A stretch of 64,000 nt of DNA. It comes from Fidelibacterota bacterium. Its GTDB lineage: Bacteria > Fidelibacterota > Marinisomatia > Marinisomatales > TCS55. The stretch is from positions 1-64,000 of the forward strand of contig JAERSH010000018.1 in assembly GCA_016845785.1 (NCBI GenBank), read 5' to 3'. How positions within the stretch are numbered: the first letter of the stretch is position 1; every line of letters begins with the position of its first letter. Positions 56,698 to 64,000 of this stretch are shown piece after piece. Under the pieces are notes generated by a model. The model was given only the letters and a program-made list of their open reading frames with translations. It was not told where the DNA came from and did not search any database. The position numbers were made by a program, and so were the translations under genes.

Positions 56698-57870
56698 ATG
56701 AAACAGCTTGGCCCCGACTTTTACAATATAACTGACCTTCTCACCGAAGAAGAGTTGCTGATCCAGCAAACAGCTTACGATTTCGTGAAAGCTGAATTTA
56801 TGCCCGTCATTAATGAACATTATGAGAAGGGCACCTTCCCCATGGAACTGGTCCCCAAACTGGGTGAACTGGGATTCATGGGATCATCCTTGCCGGAAGA
56901 GAGTGGTGGCGCCGGCGTGAGCAACGTAGCATATGGTCTTATTTTACATGAGTTAGAACGTGGCGATTCAGGACTTCGATCTTTTGCAAGTGTTCAGGGG
57001 GCTTTGGTCATGTATCCAATTCATGCTTATGGTTCGGATGAACAAAAAGCCAAGTGGCTCCCCGGATTGGGCTCCGGTGAAAAGATAGGCTGTTTCGGAC
57101 TTACGGAGCCGAACTTCGGCTCCAACCCCGGCGGTATGGCCACACGCTGCAAACGAGACGGCGATGACTGGGTTATTAACGGAAATAAAATGTGGATCAC
57201 CAATGGCACACTTGCAGATGTAGCCGTGGTTTGGGCTCGGGATGAAGAAGGAATCGTCCGTGGTTTTTTATTAGAAAAAGGGATGGACAGTTTCACATCT
57301 AGCGATATTCACGGAAAATTGAGTTTGAGAGCATCAGTTACATCCGAACTTTCTATGGCCAATGTAAGAGTACCCGATTCGGCGCGGCTCCCGAATATTG
57401 AAGGGTTGAAAGGACCCTTGGGTTGTCTGACTCAAGCACGGTACGGCATCTCTTGGGGAATGATCGGTGCAGCGGTGGACTGCTACAACACAGCACTAGA
57501 TTATGCCAAAGAGCGGAAACAATTCTCCAAGCCCATCGGTGGATATCAACTGACCCAGAAAAAATTAGCGGATATGGTAACACGCATCACCGAAGCACAG
57601 CTATTGTGTTATCGCTTGGGACGATTAAAAGATGAAGGCACCATGACTTTTCAGCAAGTATCCATGGCGAAGCGGAATAATTGTGAAATGGCGAGAGATA
57701 TCGCCCGCATGAGCCGTGAAATGTTAGGGGCCAACGGCGTCACGGAAGATTATTCGCCTATGCGACACATGGCCAATATTGAGTCCGTTTATACTTACGA
57801 AGGAACCCACGAGATGCATACCCTGATCTTGGGTCAGGATGTAACGGGTTTGGCCGCCTACGACTCATAA
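56698..57870 (+). CDS. gcdH: Acyl-CoA dehydrogenase of the glutaryl-CoA dehydrogenase type
   Basis: A 390-residue flavoprotein. CFGLTEPNFGSNPGGMATRC and MWITNGTLADVAVVWAR bind flavin and substrate; HGKLSLRASVTSELSMANVR and YSPMRHMANIESVYTYEGTH follow. The catalytic base is Glu368 in TYEGTHEMHTLILGQ, the position and context of glutaryl-CoA dehydrogenase. The enzyme oxidises and decarboxylates glutaryl-CoA to crotonyl-CoA in lysine breakdown. A 94-bp gap separates it from the acyltransferase gene; an AAAGGAAAA site precedes the ATG. Confidence 0.9.
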   Translation: MKQLGPDFYNITDLLTEEELLIQQTAYDFVKAEFMPVINEHYEKGTFPMELVPKLGELGFMGSSLPEESGGAGVSNVAYGLILHELERGDSGLRSFASVQGALVMYPIHAYGSDEQKAKWLPGLGSGEKIGCFGLTEPNFGSNPGGMATRCKRDGDDWVINGNKMWITNGTLADVAVVWARDEEGIVRGFLLEKGMDSFTSSDIHGKLSLRASVTSELSMANVRVPDSARLPNIEGLKGPLGCLTQARYGISWGMIGAAVDCYNTALDYAKERKQFSKPIGGYQLTQKKLADMVTRITEAQLLCYRLGRLKDEGTMTFQQVSMAKRNNCEMARDIARMSREMLGANGVTEDYSPMRHMANIESVYTYEGTHEMHTLILGQDVTGLAAYDS

Positions 57871-57955: not shown

Positions 57956-58315
57956 TTAATCAGAATTCCAATTCATAATGCCAGTTAATGCTGGTAATGA
58001 CCATAGTGTAAGTGGTAACAAACCACTCGGCATTTCCGCTACTGGAACTCCATAAAGTTCAAGTTTCATTATAAATCCAATAATAAACCAAATTACCATG
58101 GGAGCACATAAAACTACTGCTAATCGAGCTTGAGTTTGACCTTCAGTCATAAATGCTACATAAAGTAGATATATGGAAACAATTCCCAAATAGAGGAATA
58201 TTGAGAGATTCTCCATACTTCCGCCATTTGTTATGTAGCCACCAATTACTCCCATAAATAGATGCATTAATGCAAGAATTATAAGCCAAATTTTTGGTTT
58301 CATTATTTTATTCAT
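57956..58315 (-). CDS. Four-helix membrane protein under the shared leader (gene A)
   Basis: A 119-residue membrane protein with helices at about 9-27 (WLIILALMHLFMGVIGGYIT), 36-56 (LSIFLYLGIVSIYLLYVAFM), 65-86 (LAVVLCAPMVIWFIIGFIM) and 99-115. Length and four-helix layout resemble the proteins at 62132 and 63710, but no clear sequence match was seen between it and them. Its strong AGGAG site and 5' leader are nearly the same as those of the genes at 62132 and 62763, so all three are likely controlled together. Function unknown. Confidence 0.75.
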   Translation of the reverse strand: MNKIMKPKIWLIILALMHLFMGVIGGYITNGGSMENLSIFLYLGIVSIYLLYVAFMTEGQTQARLAVVLCAPMVIWFIIGFIMKLELYGVPVAEMPSGLLPLTLWSLPALTGIMNWNSD

Positions 58316-58400
58316 TTTCTTCTCCTTTTGGTTTGATTATCCCTTCATGGGATGGATAAATATAGAATTTTTCAAAAAAAAAAAAAAATAGCATTTTGAT
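58316..58400 (-). promoter_or_regulatory. Shared 5' leader, copy A
   Basis: Read on the minus strand: a 12-bp box ATCAAAATGCTA (58389-58400), 15 T residues (58374-58388 on the plus strand as A), GAAAAATTC, TATATT, then ATCCC-ATGAA-GGGAT hairpin and AGGAG. The same order occurs upstream of the genes at 62132 and 62763. Confidence 0.7.
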
Positions 58401-58416
58401 TGGCAAGAAAACCAAA

Positions 58417-58442
58417 GGGAAACCACTAAAGCAGTTTACGGG
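58417..58442. repeat. Degenerate copy of the left hairpin of the 110-bp cassette
   Basis: GGGAAACCACTAAAGCAGTT matches GGGAAACCACTAAAGTGGTT of the cassette at 62019 except for two bases. Only the left end is kept; the 24-bp central palindrome and the right hairpin are missing. It stands 16 bp from the shared leader box, as in the intact copy at 63593 (14 bp). Confidence 0.5.
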
Positions 58443-58504
58443 TAAGAAGTTGGTCTTTCATAGGCGAGCAATGAAAAGGGATTGCGTCCTACGGTTTGTA
58501 AACT

Positions 58505-59698
58505 TTATTTGATCGGATTCAAGTCAAGGACATTTTCATAGGTTAAAAGTTTGAGTGGTATTTCGGGATATTTATTTCTAAAAAAATCATATTTATAAGA
58601 TTTAAATAATTTGTCTGAAAATTTTACTTCGAACGCATTCTTTTCCTGAATGATAAAATCAACTTCCTGCTTTTTTTGGGTACGCCAGTATTTCATATCC
58701 CAATCGCTATCAAAATGATCGGCAAAAAGTCGGTACACATAGTTCTCTAAAAGTTCTCCACGGTCTTCTCTGATTAAAATGGGATCAAAATTTCCCATGA
58801 AAAAGTTGCGTAATCCTAAATCCTGGAAATAAGCTTTTTTCATTTTTCTTAATTCGGTCACTGCTGATTTATAAAAGGGATTGATTAATCCAATATGAAA
58901 TGATTTCTGCATTACGTAGAGATAGGCAGAAACGGTATCAGAGCTAATTTTAAGTGCGTTTCCTATAGCATTAACATTCATCAATTTTCCTGAATTCCTG
59001 GAAATAATAGATAAAATTTGCAGGTATGCTTTCGGGAGTTGCACCGATGCTTCCGTAATATCTTTTTTGATATATGCGGTAGCAATTTCTTTAAGTTTTG
59101 CCTTTTTTTGATTCAGAGTATGTGCCAAAACAACATCCGGATAACCACCGTATATAAGATATTCATCTAAAAGCGTTTTTAAATCATTAGTGAAGGATTT
59201 GGGAATTTCATGGGTATGGACGTATCGCGCCATTTCATCATAACCTTTGAAAATCAAAAATTCATTGAAGCTCATAGTCGGTAATTGAAAAATTCTTTTT
59301 CTCCCGGCCAATGAATCTTTGAATTTTTTATCAATATAAAATCCGGATGATCCGCTTACTATTAGTTTCATTTTTTCGTGATATAAATCGAACAAATGTT
59401 TGAGAAAATTTGATGGATCTTCTAAATATTGAATTTCATCTATCAGGAAAATATGTCGCTCACCTACAGGTATAGGCGGTGAAAAACGGAAAAGATTTGG
59501 TGGGTATTCATTGAGTTCAGAGAGTATCCGTTTATCTTCAAGTGAGAGCATCGTTGTTGCCTGGCCATTTTGTTCCAACGCCTGTTGGATTTGGTGTAGC
59601 AAAGTAGTTTTACCCGTTTGTTGCGCACCTTGAATTAAAGTAATCTCTTTTTCACGCGAATGTTCTAATATATCATTGAACAATAATCGTTTTTTCAT
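58505..59698 (-). CDS. AAA family ATPase with DUF4143 C-terminal domain
   Basis: A 397-residue ATPase. Walker A LIQGAQQTGKTTLLHQ, Walker B HIFLIDEIQYLEDPSNFL, then LIVSGSSGFYI and AGRKRIFQLPTMSFNEFLIF, the order of AAA_14 proteins. A winged-helix-like part and the DUF4143 end contain WRTQKKQEVDFII and NAFEVKF, the E-VDF/E-x-K pattern of a PD-(D/E)xK-like fold. Such genes spread horizontally and are common in mobile regions; biochemical function is unknown. Its upstream region has two near-identical palindromes and it lies between imperfect direct repeats. Confidence 0.9.
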   Translation of the reverse strand: MKKRLLFNDILEHSREKEITLIQGAQQTGKTTLLHQIQQALEQNGQATTMLSLEDKRILSELNEYPPNLFRFSPPIPVGERHIFLIDEIQYLEDPSNFLKHLFDLYHEKMKLIVSGSSGFYIDKKFKDSLAGRKRIFQLPTMSFNEFLIFKGYDEMARYVHTHEIPKSFTNDLKTLLDEYLIYGGYPDVVLAHTLNQKKAKLKEIATAYIKKDITEASVQLPKAYLQILSIISRNSGKLMNVNAIGNALKISSDTVSAYLYVMQKSFHIGLINPFYKSAVTELRKMKKAYFQDLGLRNFFMGNFDPILIREDRGELLENYVYRLFADHFDSDWDMKYWRTQKKQEVDFIIQEKNAFEVKFSDKLFKSYKYDFFRNKYPEIPLKLLTYENVLDLNPIK

Positions 59699-59719
59699 GG
59701 TATTCCCCTAAATAGAAAT

Positions 59720-59764
59720 GGAATAATATTCTAATAAAATTACTAAAAAATGGAATAATATTCC
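59720..59764. promoter_or_regulatory. Two GGAATAATATTCC palindromes upstream of the AAA ATPase gene
   Basis: GGAATAATATTCT at 59720-59732 and the perfect palindrome GGAATAATATTCC at 59752-59764 are 32 bp apart, three helical turns, and begin 22 bp upstream of the start codon. A further half-site, ATTATTCC, is near 59789-59796. The arrangement is that of a dimer-binding operator; the binding protein is not identified. Confidence 0.5.
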
Positions 59765-60050
59765 AATTATAATAATAAATAATAGAAAATTATTCCAACT
59801 ATTAAAAAGTTTCCCTAAAAAGTGTATATAATGATTCAATTTATCCCCTAAAAATTGTCAATATGTGTGACGTATAGCTCACAAAAAGGGAAAATGTAGC
59901 TCATAATACAACTAAAATGAGATACAAATAGATTAGTGGTGAGCTACAATACAAAGAATGATGAGCTATATCGGTCAGCAAGAAACGGGGATAGCGGCCT
60001 ACGATTCTTAATTTGTGTTATCCTTACAAAGGTTTTGAACCTTGGTAAGG
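59765..60050. other. Non-coding accessory segment, nested inverted repeat at 59873-59970
   Basis: No gene is seen between the AAA ATPase start and the Crp/Fnr gene end. The clearest structure is two pairs of arms: TATAGCTCA (59873-59881) with TGAGCTATA (59962-59970), and TGTAGCTCA (59895-59903) with TGAGCTACA (59940-59948). Both pairs centre at 59921.5 and the unit spacing is 22 bp on each side. The rest is AT-rich. Confidence 0.6.
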
Positions 60051-60668
60051 TTAAACCAAAATCTTAATCAAACCCCGTTTCAATTCTACTTGACCATCTT
60101 TTTCCATCTTCTTTAGGATTCTGGACACCACCACTCGCGCTGTGCCTAATTCGTTGGCCAATCCTTGATGGGTGATGCGTAAAGTGGATGCATTCGTTCG
60201 TTCTTTATATTGAGACAAATAATGGGCCAGCCGCACATCCACGGATTGAAAGCTCAAATCTTCCATGGCATTCATGAGTTCTGTGTATCGGTTCATAAAA
60301 GTCTGGATGATAAAACTATTCCAACTGTCGAATTTGATCTGCCATTCCCGCACCTTATCAATGGGTATCATATACATTTCCGAGTCCGACTCAGTCACCG
60401 CATTCACTTGGCTTTTCATATCACCAAAACTGGCCACGAGACTCATCATACAGGTTTCCCCAGGGGATATATAATAAACGAGAATTTCCCGATCCAAATC
60501 GAAGTCCTGCCGAAAAACGCGAATCGATCCTTTTGTGAGTAGGGGAATGACCTTCATGTATTTCCCTTGTTCCGCCAGAATTGTATCTTTCGGGACGGGG
60601 GCCAATTCAGCGGAACGATTTAGCTCCGCCATGAATGTTTTCTCAAATGGATAGAATGCCTTGCTCAT
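60051..60668 (-). CDS. Crp/Fnr-family transcriptional regulator
   Basis: A 205-residue regulator. The cyclic-nucleotide-binding-like domain spans about 20-130 (TILAEQGKYMKVIPLLTKGS, ILVYYISPGETCMMSLVASF) and the winged HTH about 145-205 (RITHQGLANELGTARVVVSR). No cluster of Cys like the FNR iron-sulfur ligands is present, so the signal is unknown. The recognition helix has V-V-V-S-R in place of the usual E-x-x-S-R. It is the last gene of a three-gene operon and overlaps the hydrolase gene by 4 nt. A GTAAC-N4-GTTAC palindrome lies at the operon start. Confidence 0.93.
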   Translation of the reverse strand: MSKAFYPFEKTFMAELNRSAELAPVPKDTILAEQGKYMKVIPLLTKGSIRVFRQDFDLDREILVYYISPGETCMMSLVASFGDMKSQVNAVTESDSEMYMIPIDKVREWQIKFDSWNSFIIQTFMNRYTELMNAMEDLSFQSVDVRLAHYLSQYKERTNASTLRITHQGLANELGTARVVVSRILKKMEKDGQVELKRGLIKILV

Positions 60669-61663
60669 GAGTTGGAATTTATTCTGAATATGTCTTGAAA
60701 AAACTTTAAATAAACGGGAAAAACATCATTATATACACCGGGATAATAGGTATTTGACGGATGCTGATATTGATTTTTATCTCTCTCAAAACTCTTGGGA
60801 TTGACCATCGGAATGGCCGACATGTGTTCACCTTCATATGTATATATTGAGATAGCATCGTTAGGATGTTTTTGATATAACGTATCAATTGCTTCATACG
60901 ATGATCCCAAAAAGCGATCTAATGTGCCTTGAGAGATGAGCGTGGGTGTTTTAATATCTCTTAATTCCTTTTTGACTCGGCCAGACAAAATAAGCGCAAT
61001 TACATTCAAAATACTTCTTGCCGAGACTTTATTTCCCCATCCACCCAGTGGTTCATCGGGGATAACCGGCCAAAAACAAAAGCTGTCCGGAAGATAGCAT
61101 GTAGATTCTTTTGGATGCTCCTGATATGCTTTGATAAAATTATTCCGGGTAATGAGATCTTTGATCGCATTCAATAAAATAAATCGTGTAAAGGATAAAG
61201 GCCATTTCGGTAATTCAAAACATGCTGGACTTTGTGAATAGACACATTGAACAGGATGACCGACATTTTCCAACTTTTTAGCGGCCATCATAGTTAAGGT
61301 CGCTGCCATGGATTCGCCAAATAATCCGATCTTTTCCGCGTCTAATTTATCATGACTTCTTGCGTAGGTCACTGCAGAGATAAAATCTTCAATCTGACCA
61401 TTTGGCGAAATATATCCTTTGGGTTTTCCGATGATGTTTTCAGAATCGCCTGATCCCCTATAGTCAATTAAGAGTGCACCGATCCCATTTTCAGCTAAAT
61501 CATTCCCAATGACTTGAAAACCAAAATCCTTTTGTGCTGCAGTTCCATGGCCACATATGACCAATGGACATAGCGTGTCACTTTGTGGAAGGAATAACCA
61601 TCCTGATATCTTTGAGCCGTGGGAATCAAAATGGACATTTTCAAACTGGATAGAATCACTCAT
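60665..61663 (-). CDS. Alpha/beta hydrolase (dienelactone/acyl-peptide hydrolase-like)
   Basis: A 332-residue serine hydrolase. VICGHGTAAQKDFGFQVIGN opens the fold; the nucleophile elbow is IGLFGESMAATLTMMAAKK (G-x-S-x-A in place of G-x-S-x-G); the acid lies in ISQGTLDRFLGSS and the His in YEGEHMSAIPM. IDYRGSGDSE near 70 is typical of DUF1100/BAAT-like hydrolases. Cytosolic, as no signal is seen. It follows the DUF2892 gene by 3 nt and overlaps the Crp/Fnr gene by 4 nt. Substrate unknown. Confidence 0.85.
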   Translation of the reverse strand: MSDSIQFENVHFDSHGSKISGWLFLPQSDTLCPLVICGHGTAAQKDFGFQVIGNDLAENGIGALLIDYRGSGDSENIIGKPKGYISPNGQIEDFISAVTYARSHDKLDAEKIGLFGESMAATLTMMAAKKLENVGHPVQCVYSQSPACFELPKWPLSFTRFILLNAIKDLITRNNFIKAYQEHPKESTCYLPDSFCFWPVIPDEPLGGWGNKVSARSILNVIALILSGRVKKELRDIKTPTLISQGTLDRFLGSSYEAIDTLYQKHPNDAISIYTYEGEHMSAIPMVNPKSFERDKNQYQHPSNTYYPGVYNDVFPVYLKFFQDIFRINSNS

Positions 61664-61666
61664 ATT

Positions 61667-61879
61667 TCAACTAAAATTCTGTACCGGTTCTGTATCGGGC
61701 ATAAGTTTATTCAGAATGAAATACACAGGGCAGAATTTAGTGAACGGACTCAATATCTGTAACACAGCCACAGCCCCGGCGAGATAGACCCATTCAATGC
61801 CGACTTGTAATGTGAGTACAACGCTTGTGCCGTAAAGTAATCCGACGATGCCGTCATGGGCTCTGATTTTTGCTTTCAT
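61667..61879 (-). CDS. DUF2892 small membrane protein
   Basis: A 70-residue protein with two membrane segments, VGLLYGTSVVLTLQVGIEWV and YLAGAVAVLQILSPFTKFCP. TKFCPVYFIL is the end motif typical of DUF2892 (the membrane part of YgaP-like rhodaneses). First gene of the operon with a hydrolase and Crp/Fnr regulator; AAAGGAAG precedes the ATG. The conserved Cys may react with sulfur or nitric-oxide species in relatives, but this is not shown here. Confidence 0.88.
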   Translation of the reverse strand: MKAKIRAHDGIVGLLYGTSVVLTLQVGIEWVYLAGAVAVLQILSPFTKFCPVYFILNKLMPDTEPVQNFS

Positions 61880-61943
61880 GGTTTTCTTCCTTTATTTAAT
61901 GAATGAACACAGGAAGTGTAAGCTGGAAGAAAGGAGAAGAACG

Positions 61944-61957
61944 GTAACTTTTGTTAC
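61944..61957. promoter_or_regulatory. Crp/Fnr-type palindrome GTAAC-N4-GTTAC
   Basis: The 14-bp site GTAACTTTTGTTAC has the 5-4-5 half-site architecture of Crp/Fnr operators. It is 65 bp upstream of the DUF2892-hydrolase-Crp/Fnr operon. A TACACT hexamer (minus strand, 61920-61915) could serve as -10, putting the palindrome near -42, the usual activating position for class II promoters. Confidence 0.6.
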
Positions 61958-61978
61958 AGTTCAGGAATATTTTGTGTA

Positions 61979-62006
61979 GTAGAGACGTAGCATGCTACGT
62001 CTCTAC
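61979..62006. repeat. 28-bp perfect palindrome centred on GCATGC, copy 1
   Basis: GTAGAGACGTAGCA followed by its exact reverse complement. An identical copy is at 62687-62714 and a related one at 62619-62646. It lies between the Crp/Fnr-operon operator and the 110-bp cassette. Confidence 0.85.
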
Positions 62007-62018
62007 ATTAATGGTTTA

Positions 62019-62128
62019 GGGAAACCACTAAAGTGGTTCGGGGTTCGTAGATTTAAATAACCCCCGGCTTAAGCCGGGGGTTATAGCAAAATGGAAAGTA
62101 TGAACCGCTTCAGCGGTTTAAAGAAATG
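62019..62128. repeat. 110-bp three-hairpin cassette, copy 1
   Basis: Left hairpin AACCACT-AA-AGTGGTT (62023-62038), a 24-bp perfect palindrome (62059-62082, CCCCCGGCTTAAGCCGGGGG core) and right hairpin AACCGCT-TC-AGCGGTT (62103-62118). It follows the gene at 62132 by 3 bp. The copy at 63593-63702 is the same length with about eight base changes and no gaps. Likely REP-like or terminator-type element. Confidence 0.9.
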
Positions 62129-62131
62129 TGC

Positions 62132-62527
62132 TTAGGCCTTGGATTTCGTATAAAGTAGGCCTGCAATGATTGGACCGAATACCATATTGGCTGTCGCCAT
62201 ATTTGCGCCAGGCTCAATAACGCCCGTGGCAAGGGTATAGATATTAATTAGAATGAATGGAACCCAAACCCAGACCTGCATTCTTCCAAATGAGTTTAAG
62301 TTCTCTCCCACAAATGAGGTTGCTGTCCAGTTCATCAAAGCGATTCCGAATACTGCAACGCCGAGCCACATGGATACGTTATTCATGTCGCCTGAGAATG
62401 ATTCATAACCAATTAATTCCAAAAACATTGCCCCGCCAAAAACAAGTCCGACGGTGAATGTTATAATATAGACAGCGTTGATTTTCAGCAGTAGCTGCAG
62501 TGTTAATCCGTTGCTTTTTGATTCCAT
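62132..62527 (-). CDS. Four-helix membrane protein, paralogue of the gene at 63710 (gene B)
   Basis: A 131-residue membrane protein with helices at about 12-38, 50-70 (MWLGVAVFGIALMNWTATSF), 82-102 (MQVWVWVPFILINIYTLATG) and 110-128. FVGENLNSFGRMQVWVW corresponds to YAGNNLKNFGMVAAAIWG of the 63710 protein, and both end in a Lys-Ser-Lys motif, so they are paralogues. It has the shared 5' leader with AGGAG, and the 110-bp cassette follows it by 3 bp. Function unknown. Confidence 0.8.
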   Translation of the reverse strand: MESKSNGLTLQLLLKINAVYIITFTVGLVFGGAMFLELIGYESFSGDMNNVSMWLGVAVFGIALMNWTATSFVGENLNSFGRMQVWVWVPFILINIYTLATGVIEPGANMATANMVFGPIIAGLLYTKSKA

Positions 62528-62610
62528 TATTTACTCCTATTGGTTTGATTATCCCTTCATGGGATGAATTAATATAGAATTTTTCAAAAAAAAAAAAATA
62601 GCATTTTGAT
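62528..62610 (-). promoter_or_regulatory. Shared 5' leader, copy B
   Basis: Box ATCAAAATGCTA on the minus strand (62599-62610), 13 T residues (62586-62598), GAAAAATTC, TATATT, the ATCCC-ATGAA-GGGAT hairpin and AGGAG before the ATG at 62527. Nearly identical to copy A, with two fewer bases in the homopolymer. Confidence 0.7.
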
Positions 62611-62618
62611 ATAGCTTT

Positions 62619-62646
62619 GTAGTCGCGAGGCATGCCTCGCCTCTAC
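62619..62646. repeat. GCATGC-centred near-palindrome, variant copy
   Basis: GTAGTCGCGAGGCA then TGCCTCGCCTCTAC: 28 bp, same ends and centre as the perfect palindromes at 61979 and 62687 but different arms. It lies next to the shared leader of gene B. Confidence 0.65.
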
Positions 62647-62686
62647 ACTAATATTATTTATAAAAAATAAAATTATGATTTATTGT

Positions 62687-62714
62687 GTAGAGACGTAGCA
62701 TGCTACGTCTCTAC
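62687..62714. repeat. 28-bp perfect palindrome centred on GCATGC, copy 2
   Basis: Identical to copy 1 at 61979-62006. It lies 49 bp after the stop of the YdhR-like lipoprotein gene. Confidence 0.85.
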
Positions 62715-62762
62715 ACCATCATTGCTATAAAACAATTATTTCATATGAGTGATTTTGCTGGG

Positions 62763-63491
62763 TCATTCCAACACACCAAACCCTTTATCGGATAAATTGG
62801 TGAAATTCGGATTATTGGCCAACGCACCGGCGTAGAGTTCACCACTCCGGTAGGCTTCGCAGGCTTCCTTGCTAGACCATGAATACACACCACCGTAAGT
62901 ATTATTTGCTTCATCAGAAAGCCACACTTTTTGAATGAGGCCCGGCAATGCAGCAAAATTGGATGCCACTTCATTGGCAACGCCCATAAAGTCATCGTGG
63001 GAAATACCTTCCAAATTAAAATTGACTACTTGAATGTAGGTGGGCGTTCCATCCATTAGATTGGCTGTTACAGCGCTTGGACCGGCCAATATGTCAAATC
63101 CCTTATCGTATAAATTTACAAAGTTGGGGTTGTTTGCTAGTGCGCCGGCATAGAGTTCTCCACCACGATATGCATCCAAATTGCCTTGGCCTTGCCAAGA
63201 ATAGACACCACCATAGGTATTATTCGCTTCATCGGACAACCATACTTTGGACACAAGTCCGGGCAGGGGTGCAAAATTCGGTGCCACTTCATTGGCCACA
63301 CCCATAAAATCATTATGGCCGATGCCTTCTAGATTAAAGTTCACCACTTGAATTGTATTGACACTCATGGTTGGTTTCTCCTTTGGTATTGTCGTAGTTG
63401 AGGAAGGTGCCGCACAGGATTGGAATATCAATAAGACTGTACTTAATAAAATAGATACAATCCCGACGGGTTTTTTGATTAAGTTAAACAT
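62763..63491 (-). CDS. Lipoprotein with two tandem YdhR-like dimeric alpha/beta-barrel domains (gene D)
   Basis: A 242-residue protein; start at 63491 (AGGAG upstream) gives MFNLIKKPVGIVSILLSTVL then LIFQSC with Cys26 lipidated. The two domains, about 46-137 and 152-242, each read QVVNFNLEGI...DFMGVANEVA, then PGL, KVWLSDEANNTYGGVYSW, and GELYAGALANNPNF, and agree at roughly four of five positions. YdhR-like proteins of about 100 residues are usually dimeric mono-oxygenase-fold proteins; here two copies in one chain could form the pseudo-dimer. Not known as lipoproteins. It shares the 5' leader with genes A and B. Confidence 0.85.
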   Translation of the reverse strand: MFNLIKKPVGIVSILLSTVLLIFQSCAAPSSTTTIPKEKPTMSVNTIQVVNFNLEGIGHNDFMGVANEVAPNFAPLPGLVSKVWLSDEANNTYGGVYSWQGQGNLDAYRGGELYAGALANNPNFVNLYDKGFDILAGPSAVTANLMDGTPTYIQVVNFNLEGISHDDFMGVANEVASNFAALPGLIQKVWLSDEANNTYGGVYSWSSKEACEAYRSGELYAGALANNPNFTNLSDKGFGVLE

Positions 63492-63578
63492 AAGTAACTC
63501 CTTATGGTTTGTTTTTCCCCCGCTTGCCAACCATAATATAGACAAAATTTTTCAAAAAAAAAAAAATAGCATTTTGAT
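63492..63578 (-). promoter_or_regulatory. Shared 5' leader, copy D
   Basis: Box ATCAAAATGCTA on the minus strand (63567-63578), 13 T residues (63554-63566), GAAAAATTTTGTC, TATATT, then AGGAG before the ATG at 63491. The ATCCC/GGGAT hairpin of copies A and B is replaced by unrelated sequence. Confidence 0.65.
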
Positions 63579-63592
63579 AAATATACAATTTT

Positions 63593-63702
63593 GGGATACC
63601 ACTAAAGTGGTTCTCGGTTCGTAGATTTAAATAACCCCCGGATTAAGCCGGGGGTTATAACAGAATGGTAAGAATGAACCGCTTCAGCGGTTTAAAGAAA
63701 TG
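63593..63702. repeat. 110-bp three-hairpin cassette, copy 2
   Basis: Same organisation as the copy at 62019-62128: left hairpin, central palindrome (63633-63656, one mismatch), right hairpin, about eight substitutions and no indels in 110 bp. It lies 7 bp after the stop of the gene at 63710 and 14 bp from the shared leader box of the lipoprotein gene. Confidence 0.9.
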
Positions 63703-63709
63703 TTTGTGC

Positions 63710-64000
63710 TTAATCTTTTGATTTGAAAAAGAACATCACTGCTATCGCGGCCATGACTATAGTCATTATTATATTTTGAATAACAAATGGATTATTACCT
63801 ACTGCATAGTGATAAGCATCGAGCCCAACGAATGCACCCCAAATCGCCGCCGCAACCATTCCAAAATTTTTCAAATTGTTGCCTGCATAAATCGGGACGA
63901 ACCAATGGATGGTGGCCATCGCCAACATGTTCATTCCCATATATGTGCCCATCATCAATAAGTCATTTGTAGGTGTAAAACCGAAGCCTTCCATCATCGC
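63710..64000 (-). CDS. Four-helix membrane protein, paralogue of the gene at 62132; 5' end beyond window (gene C)
   Basis: The frame is open to the window edge (Ala codon before two Met codons), and alignment with the protein at 62132 places these Met residues some 30 residues into the protein, so the start lies outside. Helices: about 14-34 (LLMMGTYMGMNMLAMATIHW), 45-65 (NFGMVAAAIWGAFVGLDAYH) and 73-90 (IIMTIVMAAIAVMFFF). IYAGNNLKNFG is shared with the paralogue. The 110-bp cassette follows. Function unknown. Confidence 0.75.
   Translation of the reverse strand, partial: AMMEGFGFTPTNDLLMMGTYMGMNMLAMATIHWFVPIYAGNNLKNFGMVAAAIWGAFVGLDAYHYAVGNNPFVIQNIIMTIVMAAIAVMFFFKSKD

Follow-up and report, generated by a model that had tools for sequence, protein, structure and literature searches.

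A putative promoter and 5′-UTR leader shared by changing small genes at a variable slot in Marinimicrobia

Introduction

Stem-loops at the 5′ terminus, of the type known from ompA, stabilise mRNA, and integron platforms express changing cassettes from one promoter. At the sabA gene of H. pylori, variants from T5 to T22 exist, and the length of the tract near the core promoter sets or grades output (PMC4081817). The locus described here recalls each of these systems in part. It belongs to a metagenome-assembled genome of an uncultured marine member of the Marinimicrobia (Neomarinimicrobiota; 2.16 Mb in 93 contigs), a placement based on named relatives of gene D, and the window, by which we mean the whole stretch of 64,000 nucleotides analysed, corresponds to positions 1-64000 of a 107-kb contig. 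A sequence-only reading of the window had pointed to one leader with a homopolymer tract in front of three genes (A, B and D) and had proposed a phase-variable regulon. Here we argue that the leader is probably a shared promoter and 5′-UTR module, which is reused for changing small genes in Marinimicrobia of this order, mostly at one variable slot. Since a literature search yielded no paper pairing Marinimicrobia with phase variation, a promoter family defined by an elastic spacer, a rigid 5′ UTR and a box that lends itself to testing would offer a useful entry point to an uncultured phylum.

Materials and Methods

Genome-wide statements are based on pattern and model searches in the single genome of the source species that was compared. 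The relatives comprised 245 genomes of the phylum, which were scanned with a pattern derived from the UTR. In one of the search patterns used for collecting leaders the spacing between hairpin and RBS was fixed.

Results and Discussion

Leader copies and the genes behind them

Inspection of the minus strand confirmed the proposed common order in A, B and D, consisting of the box ATCAAAATGCTA, a T tract, GAAAAATT, TATATT and AGGAG. Leader A (58316..58400) carries the box at 58400-58389, T15 at 58388-58374 and TATATT at 58364-58359, followed by the hairpin ATCCCATGAAGGGAT at 58353-58339, AGGAG at 58326-58322 and the ATG at 58315. Leader B (62528..62610) is arranged in the same way, with the box at 62610-62599, T13 at 62598-62586, TATATT at 62576-62571 and the hairpin at 62565-62551, then AGGAG and the ATG at 62527. 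Leader D (63492..63578) consists of the box at 63578-63567, T13 at 63566-63554 and TATATT at 63540-63535, and its UTR, ending in AGGAG and the ATG at 63491, is diverged and of equal length. The spacing is the only departure from the common order, as D reads GAAAAATT-TTGTC-TATATT with five bases in between, whereas A and B have a single base (GAAAAATT-C-TATATT). The tract lengths of 15, 13 and 13 were found exactly as reported.

Scanning the whole genome for the box followed by T7 yielded exactly four sites, all of them in this cluster and within 7 kb. The additional copy, leader E, has a tract of T11 and lies just past the end of the window (contig 64079-65239, box at contig 65239), where it is split by an insert. 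One half comprises the box, T11 and GAAA, and the other, at 64137-64076, comprises GAAAAATTT-TATATT, the hairpin and the RBS. The insert encodes an IS30-family transposase (NF033563, E 2.5e-89, above the cut-off), and the GAAA that flanks it on either side is suggestive of a target duplication. The ATCCC-N5-GGGAT hairpin, which had been noticed in A and B, is also present in E and is absent from D; searching for it gave two matches (A and B) compared to none expected.

The genes served by the four leaders, all on the minus strand, differ considerably. Gene A (57956..58315) encodes a membrane protein of 119 aa without Pfam or NCBIfam family, gene B (62132..62527) a membrane protein of 131 aa that is a distant homologue of E (25% identity), gene D (62763..63491) a lipoprotein-like protein with duplicated YdhR (PF08803) domains, and gene E (63710..64078, of which 63710..64000 lies in the window and the start codon at 64078 beyond it) a membrane protein of 122 aa. 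Proteins A, B and E are mutually 22 to 25% identical or unrelated, no relation of A to B and E being detectable, and D is unrelated to them. Leaders A and B are nevertheless identical at 74 of 82 positions. As the proteins behind these leaders are diverged or unrelated, simple gene duplication does not account for the pattern, and the leader has spread, or has been kept, separately from the genes.

Further genes on the minus strand of the cluster are without a leader copy, namely an AAA_14/DUF4143 ATPase (58505..59698) and a group encoding a YgaP-like transmembrane protein, an alpha/beta hydrolase and a Crp-family regulator (60051..61879). Upstream of the latter group a GTAAC-N4-GTTAC palindrome is located at window positions 61944-61957, which occurs once in 78 kb and is probably the regulator's own site. 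Two sets of intergenic repeats were also observed, both confined to this cluster within 78 kb. A palindromic repeat, GTAGAGACG...CGTCTCTAC, is present in three copies (window 61979-62006 and 62687-62714, contig 65316-65343), and palindromes resembling it sit before leaders in other genomes. The second set (CCACTAAAGTGG, CCCGG(C/A)TTAAGCCGGG and CCGCTTCAGCGG) is present in two copies at window positions 62025-62115 and 63599-63689.

Elastic and rigid parts of the leader family

Further copies were found outside this genome, the leader being present in other species, in additional genera of its family and in other families of the order. The UTR pattern detected 11 sites in the 245 genomes of the phylum, all inside the order, and the reversed control detected none. 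A sequence-only profile built from 13 leaders found extra copies in three genomes outside its building set (G021, G133 and G152; E 1e-8 to 1e-12). As far as its sequence defines it, the module consists of a near-palindromic box (AAAATGCTATTT), an elastic T-rich stretch, the -10-like TATATT, a fixed 43-nt run to the start codon, which often opens with a short hairpin, and AAACCAAAAGGAG.

The alignment of 15 copies is gapless from TATATT past AGGAG and the RBS, and 12 of 14 leaders, D among them, have 43 nt between TATATT and the ATG, the remaining two having 42 and 45 nt; part of this rigidity may be due to the way in which the copies were collected, as some of the patterns required consensus spacing and thereby biased the set. 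The distance between the box and TATATT ranges from 17 to 29 nt across leaders, and an elastic spacer set against a downstream part of almost constant length leads to clear experimental predictions. The cargo following the leader also varies and includes membrane proteins, the YdhR lipoprotein, DUF3303, a tautomerase and a further lipoprotein-like protein. Viral contigs were scanned as well, with zero leader copies.

The conserved -10, UTR and RBS at fixed spacing behind the tract also bear on the idea that the T tract is merely the U-tract of intrinsic terminators belonging to upstream genes. Several boxes do have palindromic repeats ahead of them on the same strand, as such terminators might, but no terminator-like stem abuts the tracts, the sole adjacent stem (AAAAT-GCT-ATTTT) being devoid of G-C pairs. 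We consider this explanation extremely improbable.

The T tract in this genome and in its relatives

Runs of A or T of at least 11 are restricted in the 2.16-Mb genome to the four leader tracts, all of which follow ATCAAAATGCTA; outside the cluster the longest run is 8 in the 70 kb examined. From Markov models of the flanking sequence, 5 to 36 runs of at least 11 would be expected per genome, scattered anywhere. Consequently, long runs are purged elsewhere and are kept, or were recently copied, in the cluster. The co-occurrence of tract and box in four copies is not due to chance.

The relatives present a different picture. The leaders measured in other genomes have, without exception, longest T runs of 4 to 9, and their T stretch is short or interrupted (TTTATTTTTTG, TTCTTTTTATTTTTTTT, TTATTATTATTTT, TTTCCCCCTTTTTTTT, T9A8, T6AT8 and T5AT9), so that a pure long repeat at the same promoter position was not found in related lineages. 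Long T tracts do occur in genomes of the family, none of them preceded by the box. In one relative (G020) many T tracts are found at contig ends (e.g., those of L066 and L078), where they adjoin sequencing-adapter sequence and represent an assembly contaminant. Among the leaders compared, T-richness is thus conserved and the long homopolymer is not; the pure tract is a feature of the source lineage, and what has been conserved as a device is not the T tract.

These findings divide the original proposal of a phase-variable regulon. A promoter-like leader shared by membrane proteins and a lipoprotein was borne out, whereas slippage fails as a general explanation, since a slippage-prone homopolymer is not what the relatives conserve. 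For the source species alone, the T stretch of each of the four copies would have turned pure (T11 to T15), with the slippage-prone repeat located between box and TATATT. Slippage could then alter the geometry of box and -10 and may grade expression as at sabA of H. pylori. By analogy with that precedent (PMC4081817), slipped-strand mispairing might act on A, B and D, and formerly on E, switching or grading each gene independently within single cells, a reading that is compatible with the shared promoter-leader. The restriction of long A/T runs to an equal promoter position and the differing lengths of the copies would be consistent with it. On the other hand, the short runs in the same leader of relatives argue against phase variation as the conserved function, the lengths come from a single genome of the species and homopolymer length in assemblies is error-prone, and apart from the lipoprotein the cargo includes no obvious surface antigen. 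Overall, we regard phase variation as unlikely.

Less doubtful, though still somewhat unlikely in our judgement, is neutral copying, by which the leader would have been duplicated or gene-converted along with the intergenic repeats, the pure tract being a functionless chance expansion copied four times. Copying of this kind would agree with the homology of B and E well upstream of the box, palindrome included, and with the concentration of four copies in one 7-kb repeat-rich cluster containing IS30. Yet a gapless leader has been kept before unrelated genes in other genera, and the rest of the genome is purged of homopolymers of such length; neutral copying therefore bears on the purity of the tract more than on the leader.

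Promoter type and 5′ hairpin

The shared promoter-leader reading was further examined with regard to promoter elements. TATATT matches the -10 hexamer TATAAT at 5 of 6 positions in all four copies. No sigma-70 -35 hexamer was detected 16 to 18 nt upstream at three leaders (threshold 9/12), and only T's occupy the expected -35 position. At these leaders, a -35 element whose distance the homopolymer could adjust is thus not recognisable. The lack of a sigma-70 hexamer pair at the three leaders points to activation via the box or the A/T tract. The near-palindromic box has its centre approximately 32 to 44 nt ahead of the point at which transcription is expected to begin, and the leader is probably activated through the box. 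Box and A/T tract fit an activator site or a contact of the polymerase alpha subunit, so that the missing -35 would be replaced by a regulator on the box or by alpha-subunit contacts to the A/T tract. The distance between box and -10 counts against the module, as it does not keep to helical phase in the way that is usual with a classical activator.

The local Crp-family regulator was considered as box binder and is disfavoured, as its own operon has a different palindrome and several leader-bearing slots are without a crp gene; binding in trans is conceivable.

RNA polymerase is predicted to start approximately 7 nt after TATATT, so that the mRNA would carry the hairpin at its 5′ end. If the start lies where the -10 predicts, this 5′-terminal stem-loop could protect the mRNA. 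Folding energies summed over the first bases of the UTR amounted to -73 compared to -19 in shuffles, none of the 400 shuffles being as low. The hairpin varies little and covariation is scant, with one compensatory change only, and the stem is absent in several relatives as well as in D.

The variable slot

In the majority of family members the leader stands at the opening of a variable slot. On one side the slot is bordered by an asparaginase/DUF1761 pair, or by a CDF transporter where the pair is missing, and on the other side, in most genomes, by an acyl-CoA dehydrogenase, which forms the conserved boundary in the window (56698..57870, plus strand). The same slot with differing cargo was found in nine genomes (G000, G024, G017, G021, G133, G152, G001, G010 and G055), three of which (G001, G055 and G133) show one side only due to a contig end. 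Copies outside the slot were detected in REDSEA-S14_B6/G114 and UBA6931/G031, and hence the leader is not strictly bound to the locus. A tie between the leader and DUF1761 was rejected, as two genomes (G013 and G020) carry DUF1761 without the leader. The G024 slot also contains a gene for a Fic/DOC-domain protein (L010:6858-7901), and a similar gene is present in the slot of G133.

A comparison of G001 and G010 (L030 and L020) is instructive with respect to gene turnover. Their leaders are near-identical, and G010 has an extra METSL gene inserted precisely between the leader and gene E, as if cargo had been exchanged at the repeated leader/RBS sequence. Homologous recombination would be the presumed route of this exchange. 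The slot illustrates how one promoter design is reused during turnover of gene content.

Comparison with known systems

Going beyond the shared module, one may picture a cargo-swapping slot run by a portable promoter-leader, in which the T-rich spacer, being elastic, serves as a tuning rod that links regulator box and -10 and has become, in the source species, a slippage-prone homopolymer setting the output of each copy independently. We offer this extended picture as speculation and consider it quite unlikely.

The resemblance to sabA of H. pylori lies in a long pure T tract by the core promoter (T13 to T17 being common there) and in several genes per genome with tracts placed similarly (PMC4081817). 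In contrast to sabA, the tracts described here belong to copies of a single leader that has a conserved box upstream, a sigma-70 -35 is not recognisable, and the tract is impure in relatives. With stabilisers of the ompA type the leader shares a predicted short stem-loop that lies at the mRNA 5′ terminus or close to it, before an unstructured RBS, but the stem comprises 5 pairs only, is missing in some copies and owes its terminal placement to a predicted start. No site-specific integrase was found among the slot genes (AAA/DUF4143, Crp, hydrolase, YgaP, YdhR, transmembrane proteins and IS30). As in an integron, a chromosomal slot of fixed position contains differing small genes that are served by one promoter design; unlike in an integron, each leader-using cargo gene of this genome has its own leader copy.
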